Shown here one piece after another: positions 19,855-46,378 of a DNA stretch of 64,000 nt. Within the stretch, counting starts at the first letter, position 1. Every line of letters begins with the position of its first letter. Origin of the DNA: an uncultured Lachnospiraceae bacterium (GTDB lineage: Bacteria > Bacillota > Clostridia > Lachnospirales > Lachnospiraceae); the NCBI GenBank assembly GCA_947567595.1, contig CANOMQ010000005.1:62001-126000 (forward strand), written 5' to 3'. The notes below the pieces were generated by a model. It was not told where the DNA came from, did no database searches, and saw nothing but the letters and a program-made list of their open reading frames with translations. The position numbers were made by a program, and so were the translations under genes.

Positions 19855-20136
19855 ATGCGTATAGATGCTTACAATCAGCTACAGCAGATTTATGGGACAA
19901 AAAAATTAAACAAAGTAGAGGGAAAGAAGACGACAGCGACATCCTTCCGCGATCAGTTAATTTTGTCATCAACCGCAATGGATACCGCCATAGCGAAGCA
20001 GGCAGTTGCAAACGCGCCCGACGTGCGGGAGGATTTGGTAGGTTCCTTAAAGCAGCGGATTGACAATGATACCTACGAGGTAGATGTTGACGATTTCGCA
20101 GAAAAACTGTTGGAAAAGTATAACGGATTATTTTAA
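19855..20136 (+). CDS. flgM: Anti-sigma-28 factor FlgM
   Basis: 93 aa. ATG 19855 is chosen because AAGGAGGAG lies 7 bases upstream. It opens with MRIDAYNQLQQIYG, a common FlgM start, and the C-terminal half VREDLVGSLKQRIDNDTYEVD followed by DDFAEKLLEKY matches the sigma-28 binding helices of FlgM. FlgM holds sigma-28 inactive until the hook is finished and FlgM is exported. Here the gene sits under a sigma-28 promoter and leads the late flagellar operon, giving a feedback loop. Confidence 0.9.
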   Translation: MRIDAYNQLQQIYGTKKLNKVEGKKTTATSFRDQLILSSTAMDTAIAKQAVANAPDVREDLVGSLKQRIDNDTYEVDVDDFAEKLLEKYNGLF

Positions 20137-26248: not shown

Positions 26249-26713
26249 ATGGTAGAAGTAAATACAAAAGCATTTGGAAAGATTGCCATAGAGGATGAAA
26301 AAATTATCCGCTTTGAGCATGGAATACTGGGATTTCCCGACCTAAAGGATTTTACCCTGATTTTTAACATAGAGAAGGGTGCAGAGTCAGCAATCAAATG
26401 GCTCCAGTCACTTGACGAGCCGAATTTTGCGATGCCGGTCATGGATCCGAACCTTGTGATGGATGAATACACGCCGATGTTTGACAGGGAGCTGTTAAAG
26501 CCCTTGGGCGGGGAACTCATTCCGGATAACCTGATGATGCTTGTGACCGTGACTGTTCCAAAGGACATCACACAGACGACAGTCAACCTCAAAGCGCCGA
26601 TTATTGTAAATGTAGAGGAGCGCAAGGCAGTACAGCTTATCAGTGATGATGACACATACAGCATTAAATACGCGATCTATGACAAGATCAAGGCAAAGAA
26701 GGCAGGTGATTAA
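26249..26713 (+). CDS. fliW: Flagellar assembly factor FliW
   Basis: 154 aa, typical FliW length. It shows KAFGKIAIEDEKIIRFEHG, ILGFPDLKDFTLI, LKPLGGELIPDNLMMLVTV and NLKAPIIVN, all standard FliW stretches. In Bacillus, FliW binds either flagellin or CsrA: when flagellin is exported, freed FliW takes CsrA off the flagellin mRNA. Here it is followed at once by csrA and a few genes later by flagellin genes whose leaders carry CsrA-like sites, so the same switch is expected. Confidence 0.93.
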   Translation: MVEVNTKAFGKIAIEDEKIIRFEHGILGFPDLKDFTLIFNIEKGAESAIKWLQSLDEPNFAMPVMDPNLVMDEYTPMFDRELLKPLGGELIPDNLMMLVTVTVPKDITQTTVNLKAPIIVNVEERKAVQLISDDDTYSIKYAIYDKIKAKKAGD

Positions 26714-26714
26714 T

Positions 26715-26936
26715 ATGTTGGCACTATCAAGAAAAAAAGGCGAGGCATTAATGATTAACAACGACATCGAAATAACGGTGCTCGACATAAAGGGAGAACA
26801 GGTAAAAATTGGAATTGCCGCTCCCAAACAGGTACCTGTATACCGTAAAGAAGTATACCTGCAGATACAGGAGGCAAATAAGGAAGCCACAAACAACACT
26901 GCGGCAGTGGAGCAGTTGGCAAATTTGTTTCAATAA
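26715..26936 (+). CDS. csrA: Translational regulator CsrA
   Basis: 73 aa. ATG 26715 is chosen (MLALSRKKGEALMINND, the canonical start) with AGGTGAT just upstream in the end of fliW; a longer reading from 26643 lies within fliW. VKIGIAAPKQVPVYRKEVY is the conserved RNA-binding edge strand and following region. CsrA dimers bind GGA motifs in mRNA leaders and block translation; FliW counteracts it. A terminator follows. Confidence 0.95.
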   Translation: MLALSRKKGEALMINNDIEITVLDIKGEQVKIGIAAPKQVPVYRKEVYLQIQEANKEATNNTAAVEQLANLFQ

Positions 26937-29402: not shown

Positions 29403-29879
29403 ATGCTGAAACAAAACGGTTATGCACAATATCAGAACGCCAAAATCATGACTGCTTCTCCGGCAGAGCTTACGCTTATGCTTTATGAGGGCGCCATAAA
29501 GTTTGGAAATATTGCAATCGTTGCGATGGAAAACAAAAATCCGGCAAAAGCACACGAGAATATTGTAAGGGTAGAAAACATTATACAGAATTTCCGGGAT
29601 ACATTGGATAAAAAATATCCGATATGGGAAGAATTTGAGAAGATTTATGTCTATCTCCTGCGCAGATGTCATGAATGCAATATGAAGAAGGATCCTGAAA
29701 TTATGGAGGAAGTGTTAAAACACATCCGTTCGATGCGGGACAACTGGAAAGAAGTCATGAAAAAAGTAGCTGCTGACAAATCAAATCCTGCGGCGCAGGC
29801 AAGAGTGGCAAGCGGTCGGGGAAACGGGGCAGGATATACTGCATCGGCAGGAGCCGCCGCAAAACTTTCGGGAGCTTAG
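29403..29879 (+). CDS. fliS: Flagellin export chaperone FliS
   Basis: 158 aa. The N-terminal MLKQNGYAQYQNAKIMTASP followed by AELTLMLYEGAIKFGNIAI is the FliS signature, and the helical bundle continues through about residue 125. FliS binds the disordered C-terminal end of flagellin and keeps it unpolymerised. The last 30 residues, rich in Ala and Gly, are a flexible extra tail. It is directly after fliD and before a FliT-like gene. Confidence 0.93.
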   Translation: MLKQNGYAQYQNAKIMTASPAELTLMLYEGAIKFGNIAIVAMENKNPAKAHENIVRVENIIQNFRDTLDKKYPIWEEFEKIYVYLLRRCHECNMKKDPEIMEEVLKHIRSMRDNWKEVMKKVAADKSNPAAQARVASGRGNGAGYTASAGAAAKLSGA

Positions 29880-29892
29880 GAAGGGAAGGCAT

Positions 29893-30369
29893 ATGACAGA
29901 AGACTATTTACAAATCATGATAGAATGTCTCGAAAAGAAAATCGACGTGCTGGACAGGGTGCTTGAGCTTGATAAAAGGCAGCTTGCCATTGCGTTAGAG
30001 CAGCCCTTTGACATGGAAAAGTATGATCAGTCAATGGACGAAAAGGGTGTGTTGATTGACGAGCTGAATAAGCTTGACGACGGTTTTACAAGTACGTACG
30101 AGCGCGTGCGTGACGAAGTGCAGGCAGACCCGAAGGCTTATGCCGATAAAGTACAGCGAATGCAGGATTTAATTCGCATGGCAGTTGATAAGGGTGTGAC
30201 AGTGGAAGCGCAGGAACAGCGTGGAAAGCAGGCAATGCAGTCCGCCATGAAAGCAAAACGTAAAGAAATCAAGACCGTTAAAGTCAGCAATGAGGCTGCG
30301 ACGAAGTATTATAAAGCGATGAGCCGGGTTAATAACATAGACCCGCAGCTAATGGATAGAAAGAAGTGA
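29893..30369 (+). CDS. FliT/FlgN-like helical flagellar protein
   Basis: 158 aa, all helical with high charge: YLQIMIECLEKKIDVLDRVL, LDKRQLAIALEQPFDMEKYD and LIDELNKLDDGFTSTYERVR. The pattern, size and place after fliS fit the FliT/FlgN chaperone class, which serves FliD or junction proteins, but sequence alone does not show which. GGGAAGG precedes ATG 29893. Its stop codon lies inside the terminator stem. Confidence 0.6.
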   Translation: MTEDYLQIMIECLEKKIDVLDRVLELDKRQLAIALEQPFDMEKYDQSMDEKGVLIDELNKLDDGFTSTYERVRDEVQADPKAYADKVQRMQDLIRMAVDKGVTVEAQEQRGKQAMQSAMKAKRKEIKTVKVSNEAATKYYKAMSRVNNIDPQLMDRKK

Positions 30370-30394
30370 ACCGTTTATCGGTTCATTTCTTTCG
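30360..30394 (+). terminator. Terminator of the flaG-fliD-fliS operon
   Basis: GAAAGAAGTGAACCG pairs with CGGTTCATTTCTTTC (one G-U pair) around a TTTAT loop. The stem includes the last codons and stop of the FliT-like gene. The T-run is interrupted. Confidence 0.75.
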
Positions 30395-30440
30395 TTTGGG
30401 AAGGAAATACATAAATTGTAGATACAATTGCAAAAATATG

Positions 30441-30469
30441 TTGACATTTTCTGTCAACTGGAATATACT
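30441..30469 (+). promoter_or_regulatory. Sigma-A promoter with overlapping palindrome
   Basis: TTGACA at 30441, 17 bases, TATACT at 30464: a near-perfect sigma-A promoter. TTGACA-TTTTC-TGTCAA is a perfect inverted repeat starting on the -35, which could be an operator. Confidence 0.8.
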
Positions 30470-30544
30470 TAACTTGTAAAAACAATACATGGAAGTAGCT
30501 GCTGATTGGTAACAATGAACAGCAGAGTCGAAGGGAGTATGCTT

Positions 30545-30859
30545 ATGATAGTAAGAAATCATTTGGAAACAGGAAACGCGGCTTACGACAAACAGATAAC
30601 TTCTGTTAGTGAACGCAAGGAAGCCCTATCGGAGCAGAAGGCTAATGAACCGGAAAAAGCGGCAGAGCTGACCTTATCCGGCTATACGAAGCAGGCTGCG
30701 CAGGAGAACGGGCTGTCGGCGGAAAGTGACATTTTCGATGTTTCAAAGGCAGATGAAATGATACGTCAGGCAAATCTGAATATCTTAAATCAGGCAGATG
30801 ACGCATTCAAGGTTCAGTCAGGACAGACGATAGCAAAAGCAATCGAATTATTGAAGTAA
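30545..30859 (+). CDS. Small protein with flagellin-like ends (mini-flagellin-like)
   Basis: 104 aa. ATG 30545 has GGGAG 7 bases upstream; in-frame starts at 30506 and 30539 lack this spacing. The C-terminal 36 residues (ADEMIRQANLNILNQADDAF, VQSGQTIAKAIELL) line up without gaps with flagellin C-terminal D0 (AEEMVKYSNLQILQQAGQSM), about 13 of 36 identical to the flagellin at 39864. The start MIVRNHLETGNAAYDKQI also resembles [18 protein letters not shown]. The middle is short, charged and unlike flagellin D1-D3. It cannot build a normal filament; it could bind FliS or FliW, which recognise flagellin ends. Unlike the flagellins it is driven by sigma-A. Function not known; the homology is by eye. 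Confidence 0.7.
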   Translation: MIVRNHLETGNAAYDKQITSVSERKEALSEQKANEPEKAAELTLSGYTKQAAQENGLSAESDIFDVSKADEMIRQANLNILNQADDAFKVQSGQTIAKAIELLK

Positions 30860-30886: not shown

Positions 30887-30916
30887 AAGAGACTGGTTTG
30901 GAAGCCAGTCTCTTTT
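30887..30916 (+). terminator. Terminator of the mini-flagellin-like gene
   Basis: AGAGACTGG and CCAGTCTCT form a 9-base stem, followed by TTTTT. It makes the small gene a separate transcription unit. Confidence 0.85.
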
Positions 30917-30973
30917 TGCATATAGAAAATTGTACGAATTAAATAATATATATATATTTTTCCAACTAAATAT

Positions 30974-31051: not shown

Positions 31052-32719
31052 GTGGTTATCACACATAATACAGCGGCTATGAACGCAAACAGACAATTAG
31101 GGATTGCAGGCAGACAGGGGGCAGGCAGCACGGAAAAGCTGTCATCAGGCTACCGGGTCAACCGTGCCGCCGACGATGCGGCAGGACTGTCCATATCCGA
31201 GAAAATGAGAAAGCAGATTAGAGGATTGAACAGAGCCTCCGAAAATGCACAGGATGGAATATCACTGGTACAGACTGCGGAAGGAGCGTTAGACGAGGTT
31301 CATGATATGCTGCAGCGTATGAACGAGCTTGCGATACAGTCCGCAAACGGAACAAATTCCGAGACAGACCGTAGATACATACAGGATGAGATAGACCAAC
31401 TAAACAACGGAAATTGTGCCGCAGGCAGTAAAGGCACTGCTTACGACATATCCGGAGGCATATGGTTACTTGTCCAATTCCTCCATCGGAATCGGATTGG
31501 ATGTGTATCGGGACAATTCGTCAACATTGGCATCTGTTACACTCGGGGCGCAGGTATGGCCTGACGGTACAGCAACGCCCAAAGCGGAGCTTACCTATAA
31601 GCTTAGTGTCAATGTCAATACGCTGCTTGACAGTAACAATGCAGTCAATCTGACACCGCAGATGACGAGGCGACGATTGCAAATAGATTAAAAGCAGGCG
31701 GGAGTAATCTGGCGTCCGATACAGTGCTTTCCCAATACGGTACAGGGTATCTTGCCTGTATGTATTTGGGCTATCTTGCTAATGGCGGCGGCAATGTGAC
31801 GCAGGAAGGGATACGAAAAGGTGTTGACAAGGTCTTAAGTGAACTAAAAGGAAACAGTACGACAAAGGGAAAAAGTCTTAATGATGTGATAAAAGACTGT
31901 TCAGGCGGCACTTATAATGGCATTCAGGATTTCCAAAACAAGTTTGGTGATGCGGATTCGGCTGCATTTGTAAAGAAACTTGTAACGCTTGCCGGAAGCA
32001 ATGGAACGGGCGGACTTGCCGCAGGCTTTGCATCTGAAAACGGGATACTGCCCGATACGCCACTATCGCCTCAGATTGGATTGTTTGAGCTTGACACAGA
32101 TCACAGTGATGTGACAAATCAGTATCCCACGGATTATCCGGTTATGTCGGGAGGAGGCGCATTGACGGCTGGAACCGGTATTGACGGCAATGCAGTCGGT
32201 GGAACAGGAACACCGGGAACCGGAGGCGGCGGAACCGGAGGAGGCGGCGGAACTGGCGGCGGACCGGGAGCACCGGGAACTGGCGATAAACCCACAGGAC
32301 CTGCTTGGAAAGAGGTCACGTATTTTGGTGGGCTAAAGCTTCAGGTCAGTGCGGAAAGCGACGAACGAATGGAGATATACATCGAAGGCATAAGCTGCCA
32401 TCAGATTGGCATACAGGACGTGGATGTCACGACACAGGATGACGCGACGCGTGCCATTGACATGATTGTCTTTGCGCTAAACAGGGTATCCTCACAGCGC
32501 GCCACGCTTGGCGCATATCAGAACCGCTTAGAGCACACAATCAAAAATCTTGATAATGTTGTGGAAAATACACAGGCGGCGGAGTCTCAAATTCGAGATA
32601 CGGATATGGCACAGGAAATGGTGAAGTATTCCAACAATCAGATTTTGCAGCAGGCAGGACAGTCAATGCTTGCACAGACCACGCAGGCGGCGGACGGCGT
32701 TATGCGTCTGCTGCAATAA
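31052..32719 (+). pseudogene. Broken flagellin with remains of a flagellinolysin-type domain
   Basis: Three pieces in two frames. Piece one (31052 to about 31408) is an intact D0-D1 start from GTG 31052, through [20 protein letters not shown] to QDEIDQLNN. Piece two, shifted +1 (about 31410-31658), reads [40 protein letters not shown] and SVNVNTLL. Piece three, back in the first frame (about 31660-32719), reads GTGYLACMYLGYLANGGG, a Gly-Thr-Pro-rich linker near 32210-32290, and a complete flagellin C-terminus RDTDMAQEMVKYSNNQILQQ. From memory, pieces two and three flank the HExxH core in flagellinolysins; that core is absent here, so both junctions look like deletions. No full-length product is possible. 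It shares a transcript with the next two genes. Confidence 0.78.
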
Positions 32720-32740: not shown

Positions 32741-33820
32741 ATGATGACAGCATTACCGATTTCCGTTTGCATGATTGCAAAAAATGAGGAAAAATACATC
32801 GGGCAATGCCTGCAAAGCATCTCGCGGTTCGGATTGGAAATCGTGGTTGCGGATACAGGCTCGACAGATCGGACAAAAGAAATCGCAAAGCAGTATACCG
32901 ATAAGGTATTTGATTTCGAATGGTGCTCTGATTTTAGCAAGGCAAGGAATTTTTGTGCGGACAAGGCGTCTAATAACCGGATTTTGGCGATTGACTGTGA
33001 CGAGAAAATTCAAGCCTTGGATACAAAACGCTTAGCAGAGCAGATAAAGCAGTTTCCGCACTTTGTTGGAAAAATAACAATCAAAAATTTGCGTAAAAAT
33101 GACAATGAAAGCGAAGCTCCCGCAGACTATTCCACAGACGAAATCGTGCGTCTTTACCCAAAAAATGAGTATGAATTTGTGTTTCCGGTTCATGAGCAGC
33201 TTAGAAAAATCGGCGCGTCCGATGACAAGGAACCGCTTTCGTGCTTTGATGTCCCGATAGAACTGGTCCATTATGGCTATGCGCTCTCAAAAGAAGAGAT
33301 GTACGCAAAACAACAGCGGAACTTGGCTCTTTTATACCACATGGCAGAGGACGAGCCAAAGAATGCGTATGTACAGTTTCAGATAGGGCAGTCGCAGGCG
33401 ATTATCGGAAACCATACCGAGGCGGTTGGGGCATATGAAAAAGCGCTTTCGCTTGACGCAGATGTGACAAAGCCCTATGTACAGCTTCTTTTGGTATCCC
33501 TTGCAAGGACATACCGCAATGCCGGATACCCCGAAAAAGCGTTGTCTTTTATGGAACAATATGCACCGCTTTGCAAAACGGCAAAATTTACGGAGCTGCA
33601 TGCGGAACTGCTTTGGGGCAGCGGACAGCGCCTGAAATCAATGGCACTTTATCTGAAAGCGACACTGCTGCCAGACGCGGATACCTTAGGTGAGGGGCTG
33701 CTCCGGTGCTATGCGCATTTAATTCAGGGTTACTACGATACGGGTGATACAAAAATGGCAGAGATGTTCAAAATAAAATTCGCGGAGTGTAAGGAATCAC
33801 AGGAAAAAGGGCTTTCATGA
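32741..33820 (+). CDS. GT2 glycosyltransferase with TPR repeats, likely flagellin-modifying
   Basis: 359 aa. It begins SVCMIAKNEEKYIGQCLQSI, VVADTGSTDRTKEIA and LAIDCDEKIQ, the compact GT2 domain common in flagellin-linked transferases. The C-terminal half has tetratricopeptide-like helices: NAYVQFQIGQSQAIIGNHTE, AVGAYEKALSLDADV and YPEKALSFMEQYAPL. It sits between two flagellin loci with no terminator between, and its end overlaps an alternative start of the next flagellin. O-glycosylation of flagellin in the cytoplasm before export is the likely role. Same family as the genes at 42558 and 48497. Confidence 0.85.
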   Translation: MMTALPISVCMIAKNEEKYIGQCLQSISRFGLEIVVADTGSTDRTKEIAKQYTDKVFDFEWCSDFSKARNFCADKASNNRILAIDCDEKIQALDTKRLAEQIKQFPHFVGKITIKNLRKNDNESEAPADYSTDEIVRLYPKNEYEFVFPVHEQLRKIGASDDKEPLSCFDVPIELVHYGYALSKEEMYAKQQRNLALLYHMAEDEPKNAYVQFQIGQSQAIIGNHTEAVGAYEKALSLDADVTKPYVQLLLVSLARTYRNAGYPEKALSFMEQYAPLCKTAKFTELHAELLWGSGQRLKSMALYLKATLLPDADTLGEGLLRCYAHLIQGYYDTGDTKMAEMFKIKFAECKESQEKGLS

Positions 33821-33846
33821 TACACACCGCAAAAGGTGAGATATCA

Positions 33847-35849
33847 ATGGTTATTGCACATAATATGAAGGCAATGAATGCCGACAGACAGCTCAATATT
33901 GTAACATCCGACAAGGCAAAAAGCTCGGAAAAGCTATCGTCAGGCTACCGGATTAACCGCGCTGCCGATGACGCGGCGGGATTGTCCATTTCGGAGAAGA
34001 TGCGCCATCAGATCAGAGGTCTATACAGAGGTGCCAACAATATTGAAGAAGGCGTTGGCTATTGTCAGGTGGCAGATGGAGCATTAAATGAGATGCATGA
34101 CATGCTGCAGCGCATGAATGAGCTGTGCATACAGGCGGCGAATGGGACGCTTTCTGATACGGATAGAGGGTATATTGATGAAGAAGTTCAGCTTTTGAAG
34201 GCAGAGGTAGACCGTACTTGCCGCACGACAAGGTTTAATGAGGAATATATTTTCCGGTGTGAAGATGTGGAGGAAGAGAAGCCGCATGATGTATATAAAC
34301 TGTCTTTTACAGGGACTCCAAAAGATTTGTTTATATATAATTCTTCTTATGATGCGGATGATGCGTATGAAGGGGTTGTATTTCGGGGGAGACGTTATAC
34401 GTGGGATGAAATCAATCCTTTAATGTATGACAAGACAACACATGAGTTTCGGGAAGGAGAATACTCAATTCGGGCAGATGACGATACCGTATTGACGCTT
34501 ATATGCGAAAAAGGCGCAAAACTGCCGCAGGTGTCGAGAAAGTTCAGAACGAGCGCTGACGGAAGAGGCATTTATGTCAATGATGATCTTGTAAGCTGGA
34601 ATAATGTGAAGGTGGCAGGGGATCAGTACAGCTTAGAAAATATGTCCTTCATGCGGAGGATATCAATAACGGAGGGAAAATCCCGTATCATGGTCCGAAT
34701 GGCGTGGAATATATACCGTTTGACGGTATATGGCTTGAGGCGACAGATCAGGAGTGGAACCTTGAAAACAGGGCGCTTTGGAAGATGACATGGGGGGAGT
34801 TTCAAGGAAATACGGTGGAGGACAGGGCTAAGCTTGACACAATTCCCGGTAAAGAGAATTTTGGATTTACCTGTGATGAAGATCATGGAAAATACGATTG
34901 GGGAAATTTGTCTACGGATATCTGGAAGGGCGACAAGACAGATGATCCCAACCCCTATCCGCCGGATGTGACGGATCCGACAAAGGATCCAAATAAAACA
35001 GATTTTGCGACGTATGATGAGTACACTGAGTTTACTTTTGTAAATCCTGAGGATAACGGGGAGCTTGTAGACTTTGTGTTCAGCGTCATTTATGAAATCA
35101 GCAAAGAGCAGGCAATAAAGGCATTGGATAATCTTGATATTTGTTATGGTCCGATAGAAGTCGATAATGGCGGGGAGATACAGGAGACTTCCACGCGGAT
35201 TACGGCTTCGGATGTCAAGGTATCGCTGGCTTTAGCGGATGAGTTTTATCTGGGAAGGGACTATGAGAACGGGCAGAAGGAATATGAGCTGAAAGCCCCC
35301 GCACAGCTTGTGTATACAGGCGGCGCCTTTTCCATTCAATATGCATATGACAGCAGCAGAAAAGGCGGTAATCTGACTTATACAATGGACAGAGGGGCGG
35401 TTGATGCCGAGATTGACTATCGGGTACAGTATTTGCTGGATCAGGCTGTATTTGGAAGCCCAGAGGTTTCGACAGGAATAGAGCTGTCATTGGGAACTAC
35501 GGGGGAAGGCTCGGCAATGGTCATTACGGATACGTATGACTTGAAGGTTGTCGGCACACTCTCCGAAATGCAGGCAACAGGCTGCATTGATATGGTTGGC
35601 GCGGCACTCTCCAAATTAAGCTCTGTCAGAAGCTTGTTTGGCGCGGAACAAAACAGGCTGGAACATGCCTATGCAATTAATCAGAATACACATGAGAATA
35701 CACAGAGTGCGGAATCGGCAATTCGGGATACGGACATGGCAAAGGAAATGGTCCGTTTCAGCAATGCGAATATTTTGGAGCAGTCAGGTAATTCCATGTT
35801 GGTGCAGGCAAATCAGGCAAATAATATTGTACTGTCGCTGTTACAATAG
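33847..35849 (+). pseudogene. Flagellin with a single frameshift
   Basis: ATG 33847 follows AGGTGAG by 6 bases and starts MVIAHNMKAMNADRQLNIVT, with [20 protein letters not shown]. The frame is open to about 34640, where it breaks; the other frame continues as VLHAEDINNGGKIPYHGPNG and DGIWLEATDQEWNLENRALW to a full C-terminal end RDTDMAKEMVRFSNANILEQ. Adding one A to the AAAA run at 34637-34640 would restore one protein of about 667 aa. No slippery heptamer is in frame. The D1 start departs from the others (QIRGLYRGANNIEEG). It may be a mutation or a sequencing slip. Confidence 0.75.
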
Positions 35850-39863: not shown

Positions 39864-39865
39864 GT
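39845..39865 (+). promoter_or_regulatory. GC-rich hairpin presenting the ribosome binding site of flagellin 4
   Basis: CGCCGG at 39846-39851 and CCGGCG at 39859-39864 pair around the loop GAGGGAG, which contains the GGAGGG-type ribosome binding site; the GTG start begins on the last stem base. GGGA in a stable loop also fits CsrA binding. A second AAGGAGG lies at 39836. Confidence 0.6.
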
Positions 39866-45881: not shown

Positions 45882-46378
45882 ATGATAATACAACACAATT
45901 TGCAGGCAATGAATTCTAACAGGATGTTGGGCGTTTCAACGCGAAAGGAATCCAAATCTGTGGAAGATAACGCAAATAAGTTTCAGATTACGAATATGTC
46001 AGGATTTGTAGTGGCAGATATTGAACTGACGCAGGATAAGAGCATGGAACTCCAAGGCGGGCTCTGTGAAAATCTGACAGCCTGTATCATTTCCGCGGCA
46101 GATCTACCAACCGCATTGACGTAAATATTCAGGCAATCGAGAAAATCGCATCACAGAGGGCAATCCTTGGCGCTACGCAGAACAGATTGGAGTATACTTC
46201 GAAAAACCTTGGCAATATTGTGGAGAACGCGACCGCTTCAGAAAGCCGGCTTCGCGATGCGGATATGGCAAAAGAGATGGTGAGCTACTCCAATGCAAAT
46301 ATTTTATGCCAGGCGGGACAGTCTATGCTCTCACAATCGAACCAGTCAAATGAAGGTGTATTAGCACTGTTAGGATAA
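45882..46378 (+). pseudogene. Shrunken flagellin relic
   Basis: The ATG at 45882 starts MIIQHNLQAMNSNRMLGVST, a true flagellin D0, but the D1 start is missing and about 55 unrelated-looking residues follow before a stop at 46122. In another frame the C-terminal part is present: IDVNIQAIEKIASQRAILGA, EYTSKNLGNIVENATASESR and AKEMVSYSNANILCQ, ending EGVLALLG at 46378. One missing base near 46095-46105 would join the parts into about 165 aa. Promoter, leader and terminator are all intact, so it is probably transcribed. Confidence 0.8.

Follow-up and report, generated by a model that had tools for sequence, protein, structure and literature searches.

What is the short protein encoded between fliS and the flagellin genes of an uncultured gut bacterium of the Lachnospiraceae, and what might it do for the flagellum? 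The gene lies in a window of 64,000 nucleotides (the whole stretch of DNA analyzed), whose plus strand carries, in order, fliW, csrA, flaG, fliD, fliS, ORF158, the short gene, and the flagellin genes (Table 1). The first-pass annotation had described the product as a 104-residue protein built from the two ends of flagellin, and translation of the open reading frame indeed gives 104 residues. The analysis below confirms that observation, which is stronger than first stated, and partly supports the interpretation then attached to it. The identity of the gene product as a flagellin reduced to its ends, here called mini-flagellin, is well supported. That name is already in print, one such use, judged by its title, being for engineered flagellin chimeras. 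Among the titles and passages found in literature that covered few subscription papers, none described a D0-only flagellin gene.

Table 1. Features of the mini-flagellin locus (positions in the window)
Feature	Position	Strand	Remark
FlgM	~19855-20136		PF04316 match, E 3.4e-16
fliW, proposed partner	26249..26713	+	PF02623, E 5.2e-36
csrA	26715..26936	+	PF02599, E 2.8e-14; start by reading, scan covered 26769-26933
flaG	27087 (start)	+
fliD	27606 (start)	+	named from position and length
fliS, proposed partner	29403..29879	+	PF02561, E 2.5e-36
ORF158	29893 (start)	+	FlgN match at E 0.048 only
Hairpin 3' of upstream gene	~30367-30385
Palindrome AATTGTAGATACAATT	30414..30429	.	possible operator
Palindrome TTGACATTTTCTGTCAA	30441..30457	.	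covers -35 element; possible operator
Sigma-A-type promoter, TTGACA-17-TATACT	30441..30469	+	11/12 match
Predicted leader	30476..30544	+	two GGA motifs; start site by prediction
Mini-flagellin ORF (flagellin N-end joined to flagellin C-end)	30545..30859	+	104 aa, translation
N-half of mini-flagellin	30545..30694	+	related to flagellin residues ~1-52; diverged in window copy
C-half of mini-flagellin	30695..30856	+	flagellin CD1/CD0 end; invariant Glu54-Asn55
Hairpin with short T tail	30887..30919	+	10-pair hairpin 30887-30914; plausible terminator

Relation of the short protein to flagellin

At the C terminus, the last 36 residues align without gaps to the flagellin at 39864, with the 13 identities that had been estimated by eye (the final residue of the flagellin being omitted), and the last 54 residues share 19 identities with it. 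A single-protein search of the source genome recovered five flagellin C-ends, including an isolated fragment, with E values between 7.4e-5 and 7.4e-4. The window protein matches the NCBIfam flagellin model Hag at E 1.4e-6 and Pfam Flagellin_C (PF00700) at E 0.059 (14.1 bits, under the cut-off of 23), a cut-off passed by 7 of the 10 relatives scanned; at E<=1, Flagellin_C was found in 18 and Flagellin_N in 7 of the 21 family members. The profile search set beforehand as the test of a flagellin relation found one: the family profile matched flagellin C-ends among solved structures (best E 1.9e-12, through the C-half), and the C-half compared profile to profile with flagellin gave 98% probability (E 1.2e-14). 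The C-terminal D0/D1 end of flagellin (PF00700) is present in the family, and the C-half is conserved above the N-half (mean majority share, 0.76 versus 0.58).

The N terminus had been likened to the start of flagellin over its first 18 residues. The 5 identities to the flagellin at 39864 in that segment show nothing by themselves; the relation is clearer in the relatives, at about residues 25 to 52. The Pfam cut-off for Flagellin_N (PF00669) was passed by none of 10 relatives. Four of the five structure alignments printed also run from Met1 (two of these four being to variants of one B. subtilis flagellin), and the fifth puts residue 23 on residue 23, with N-end scores of 1.5 to 7.8 bits that are insignificant alone. 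Compared profile to profile, the N-half of all 21 members gave 12% probability (E 0.0026), residue 25 falling on residue 25, and a score of 18.98 against a best of 17.34 among 100 column-shuffled decoys. The larger branch, with 15 members, gave 44% HH probability (E 0.00024) in the right register and a score of 23.9, above all 200 of 200 decoys (best, 18.5). A 22-residue block starting at KLATG in these 15 members, at residues 24 to 32 of the mini-flagellins themselves, had a mean score of 38 when placed on flagellin residue 29, against -10 (SD 6.6) for other starts. Since the window protein and the three relatives closest to it have a diverged version of this block, the description of the N-end holds mainly via the relatives, and the predicted match of the N-half to flagellin residues ~25-52 is clear in 15 of them and weak in the window protein.

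Judged from these comparisons, mini-flagellin would correspond to flagellin residues ~1-52 fused to roughly the last 55 residues: both terminal D0 segments plus short D1 stubs. It shares with flagellin (PF00669, PF00700) both ends, the N-end in register in relatives and the C-end to the last residues, together with an invariant Glu-Asn, Asp, Ala, Met, Leu, and Gln common to the family. Unlike flagellin, it has its ends joined directly within 104 to 114 residues, so that D1 proper and the outer domains are missing, as had been proposed; several positions that are near invariant in 37 flagellins are changed, and 18 of the 21 copies have a sigma-A-type promoter. AlphaFold2 models of the window protein (pLDDT 60, pTM 0.26) and of the relative L065 (pLDDT 68, pTM 0.29) consist of helices in an unreliable fold, the latter with helix 7-33, a loop, and helix 43-112. 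Both low-confidence models lack a D1-like helical bundle, and Foldseek with the L065 model gave zero matches in the PDB.

Family, ancestry, and selection

We searched 38 genomes of the genus for short relatives; 20 stretches were read and aligned with the window protein, and the resulting 21 sequences share 12 invariant columns. Members of 104 to 114 residues are present in 21 of the 38 genomes, with an open frame in 21/21 copies. The family profile recovered the 21 genomes at E < 1e-35 and a second copy in G399 at 5.8e-20, after which no match exceeds 57 bits and long frames account for most of the matches. Since the 21 sequences built the profile, their own scores arise partly by construction, and it is the gap that matters. 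The search proposed for small homologues next to fliS found them within the genus: of 21 copies, 15 share their stretch with fliS and ORF158, 16 with a flagellin gene, and 18 with one or the other. The copies away from these genes are L060, which has glycosyltransferase neighbors, L061, and L064. The window's flagellar queries gave no match on the stretches of the last two (copies at L061:7583-7912 and L064:7072-7401), and no flagellar gene was found near either; their mutual dN/dS is 0.10. The second, more diverged copy of G399 (L108:2580-2900) lies inside a flagellin array and has, by eye, a TTGACA-type promoter.

Among the matches listed for 397 genomes of the bacterial family (to E ~1.5e-12) and for 398 genomes of the phylum (E<=1e-13), the window's genome was the only carrier; because the lists reach these E values, a diverged copy in another genus may be missed. 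The short-frame matches of the former list (G094, G240, G212, G389, G206 C27, G200, and G041) start at profile positions of at least 21, and several lie near a contig end. Single-protein searches gave for the most part two close relatives or full flagellin ends, the latter in 141/397 family genomes at E<=0.01.

Seventeen of the 38 genus genomes show no copy. Sixteen of these have flagellin-type matches and the seventeenth, G408, shows a flagellin N-end at the edge of a contig; thus, flagella seem to manage without mini-flagellin, several of the copyless genomes being incomplete. On a tree of FliS and ORF158, with 20 of 35 rows carrying mini-flagellin, its presence needs 6 changes, so losses or transfers occurred, subject to the same incompleteness.

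A tree of the last 54 residues parts the 22 mini-flagellin copies from 37 flagellins by a branch with 99/93 support, although columns are few and the second G399 copy sits on a long branch. Because the pattern used to choose the flagellins (39 found, 37 used) requires [EQ][ST].[IL]RD, conservation at -45 to -40 is circular and was left unused. In 13 of 15 chosen pairs dN/dS is 0.04 to 0.16, and in 2 it is undefined (the 15 were picked from 210 possible pairs, and dS is saturated in some). The family is under purifying selection.

Promoter, leader, and flanking elements

The gene had been credited with its own sigma-A promoter, and this claim extends to most of the family: a sigma-A-type match of 11 to 12 of 12 precedes 18 of the 21 copies, its second hexamer 81 to 96 nt from the start, while L060, L061, and L064 have just 8 to 9 of 12. 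The best sigma-28-type matches before family copies reach 7 to 9 of 12. At the four flagellin starts in the window, the second of which is possibly wrong, the best sigma-28-type matches are 10, 7, 11, and 10 and the best sigma-A-type matches 9, 7, 10, and 9 (all scores are best matches within 220 bases). A sigma-A-type promoter alone is not distinctive: in Roseburia and Eubacterium, some full-length flagellin genes too have predicted housekeeping promoters of this type (PMC3720852).

The start codon of mini-flagellin is preceded by GAAGGGAG. Each of the 18 predicted leaders contains two or three GGA motifs, and in 14 leaders two of the motifs are spaced 19 to 21 nt; the mean of 2.4 per leader, one being the ribosome site, compares with 1.5 expected from letter shuffles. 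These motifs are compatible with binding by CsrA.

Both palindromes upstream are perfect. The TTGACATTTTCTGTCAA site is kept in the three nearest relatives; of these, two have an exact copy of the more distal one and the third an altered one. Genome wide, AATTGTAGATACAATT occurs once exactly and three more times with a single mismatch, and TTGACATNNTCTGNCAA occurs once; no regulon emerged from this search. The two palindromes are possible operators of a regulator. As for the terminator also claimed for the gene, the 10-pair hairpin exists, and the terminator scan reported it, like the hairpin after the upstream gene, on the minus strand alone. The plus-strand tail TTTGC, with a stem ending in TT, was read by eye, so termination here is plausible and unconfirmed by the tool. 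With a hairpin and a promoter before it and a hairpin with a T tail after it, the gene is plausibly its own transcription unit.

Candidate roles of mini-flagellin

The regions by which flagellin is handled are mapped in B. subtilis. Flagellin D0-C wraps FliS there, FliW protects Hag residues 11-34, 50-72, and 240-260, and constructs of the first 60 or 72 residues bind FliW (PMC6070490). In Campylobacter jejuni, FliS binding is abolished by loss of the last 10 residues (PMC5466977). A C-terminal conserved Asn was reported crucial to FliW binding (Titz 2006, told in PMC5466977). Counted from the C-end, Glu -51, Asn -50, Asp -40, Ala -36, Met -33, Ile -32, Ile -25, Leu -24, Gln -14, Gln -11, and Leu -3 are kept in all 21 mini-flagellins and Leu -2 in 19; position -32 is Val in 37/37 flagellins. 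Asn55 of the family (-50) aligns with Hag 255, within the FliW-protected 240-260 stretch. Parts of the footprint are missing, namely Hag ~53-72 and 240 to ~249. Mini-flagellin thus appears to retain the segment that FliS is reported to grip and some of the FliW footprint, and the mapped regions of the B. subtilis FliS/flagellin/FliW complex are partly shared, the ligand there being full flagellin (PMC6070490). Assembly may be a further reason for keeping such flagellin-end residues.

Other positions kept in 35 to 37 of 37 flagellins are changed: Gly -20 is retained in 1 of 21 copies, and Gln -19, Gln -8, Gly -7, and Leu -5 in none. Positions -8 and -5 are Hag Q297 and L300, where 37 and 36 of 37 flagellins have Gln and Leu, and B. 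subtilis mutants at these positions are described as having stable flagellin and filaments that are short or nearly absent (PMC6070490). A third secretion position, V299, whose mutant has almost no filaments (PMC6070490), corresponds to -6, which is Val in 19 of 21 copies and Ala in the window copy; at this position the evidence is mixed. Because the grips are kept and some export or assembly positions are changed, we consider mini-flagellin more likely to be a ligand that binds FliS and FliW in the cytoplasm than a building block, and it probably does not polymerize like flagellin.

We propose, with a probability of roughly 40%, that mini-flagellin is a stand-alone ligand of FliS or FliW that tunes flagellin output. 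It would be made from its sigma-A promoter, and so independently of sigma-28, and would stay in the cytoplasm as a ligand of the flagellin handlers: the C-end would occupy FliS, and the N-end together with the invariant Glu-Asn would bind FliW. With FliW occupied, CsrA would be free to hold back flagellin translation until flagellin is needed; alternatively, occupation of FliS would buffer the chaperone until that time. The sequence data are consistent with FliS/FliW binding, an effect on CsrA, and expression before the sigma-28 genes, all of which the first-pass annotation had suggested; its further idea of a filament cap or seed drew no observation in favor. Speaking for the ligand role are the homology of both ends, the 99/93 clade, dN/dS, the conservation of the C-half, the promoter type, and the neighborhood of fliS and flagellin genes. 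Against it stand the diverged N-half of the window protein, the missing part of the FliW footprint, the C. jejuni FlaC-FliW result described below, V299 kept in 19/21 copies, the 17/38 copyless genomes, the three off-locus copies without a strong promoter, and the low confidence of the models.

A more specific version, which we consider rather unlikely, is a D0-only decoy made early from sigma-A that would bind FliW (and FliS), so that CsrA would block flagellin synthesis before the hook is built, with the decoy itself under CsrA control. We know of no described flagellum in which such a decoy adds a layer to the flagellin checkpoint; if this version were true, this genus would have gained one.

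Two flagellin-like proteins offer comparisons. HP1076 of Helicobacter pylori (171 residues, with a D1-like fold) binds FliS in competition with flagellin, and its null mutant retains flagella and motility (PMC7248283). Like mini-flagellin, for which the retained C-end suggests FliS binding, it is a small, stand-alone, lineage-restricted flagellin-like protein; as described, it is D1-like by fold, whereas mini-flagellin keeps D0 ends by sequence. FlaC of C. jejuni also largely lacks outer domains and is bound by FliS, secreted, and unassembled; unlike mini-flagellin it keeps D0 and D1, and C. jejuni FliW does not bind it despite its conserved Asn, the site having been mapped to the N-end (PMC5466977).

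The rivals to a FliS/FliW ligand include several other fates for flagellin ends. One, which we hold to be unlikely, is a structural part that is exported: a subunit consisting of D0 alone, secreted by way of the hook and built into the core of the filament or the junction between hook and filament, much as the small protein FliE is built into the rod. Flagellin carries its export signal at the N-end, and the N-end of mini-flagellin is in register with that region; both D0 segments are present, a flagellin gene shares the stretch in 16/21 copies, and the low-confidence relative model of two helices and a loop would suit such a subunit. Yet the near-invariant flagellin positions from Gly -20 to Leu -5 listed above are changed, there is no D1 to hold subunits, and the promoter type would make the protein early. 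Quite improbable is a secreted effector or decoy that leaves via the flagellum and acts outside the cell: FlaC, secreted and unassembled, is a precedent (PMC5466977), but FlaC itself keeps D0 and D1, mini-flagellin gives no sign of export, and two B. subtilis flagellin-secretion positions are changed in it. A functionless remnant of internal deletion, like the broken copy near 46 kb, would fit a genome with broken and partial flagellin copies and is nevertheless very improbable, contradicted for the family by the dN/dS values, 21/21 open frames, a single clade, and a promoter shared by 18/21. Small size and a helical C-end would also suit an anti-sigma-28 factor like FlgM or another small flagellar regulator resembling flagellin by chance, a reading just as hard to credit given the significant flagellin match and the separate FlgM in the window.

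FlgM (PF04316) was rejected as the identity of the protein, being absent from the Pfam matches of the 21 members at E<=1; these matches include no co-chaperone family either, for which Pfam may hold no model.

As a FliS/FliW ligand or otherwise, mini-flagellin is a natural minimal flagellin that separates the handling regions (the FliS and FliW grips) from those that build the filament. Should it bind FliW, it would provide a small natural ligand for probing the FliW-CsrA partner switch, and a case of a checkpoint that arose by internal deletion of the regulated protein.

The surrounding flagellin genes show irregularities of their own. The one directly 3' of mini-flagellin (31052-32719) is broken over frames (31052-31564, 31416-31691, and 31724-32719) and is either a pseudogene or an assembly error. 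Another, at 33817-35849, is split into 33817-34788 and 34704-35849, and a degenerate flagellin, shortened in the middle and with a change of frame, lies at ~45900-46372. Elsewhere in the source genome there is an isolated flagellin C-end (G000 C1:227580). The stretch 32741-33820 encodes a family-2 glycosyltransferase with weak TPR matches, of a type that recurs among the flagellin genes of relatives and is perhaps a flagellin glycosyltransferase.
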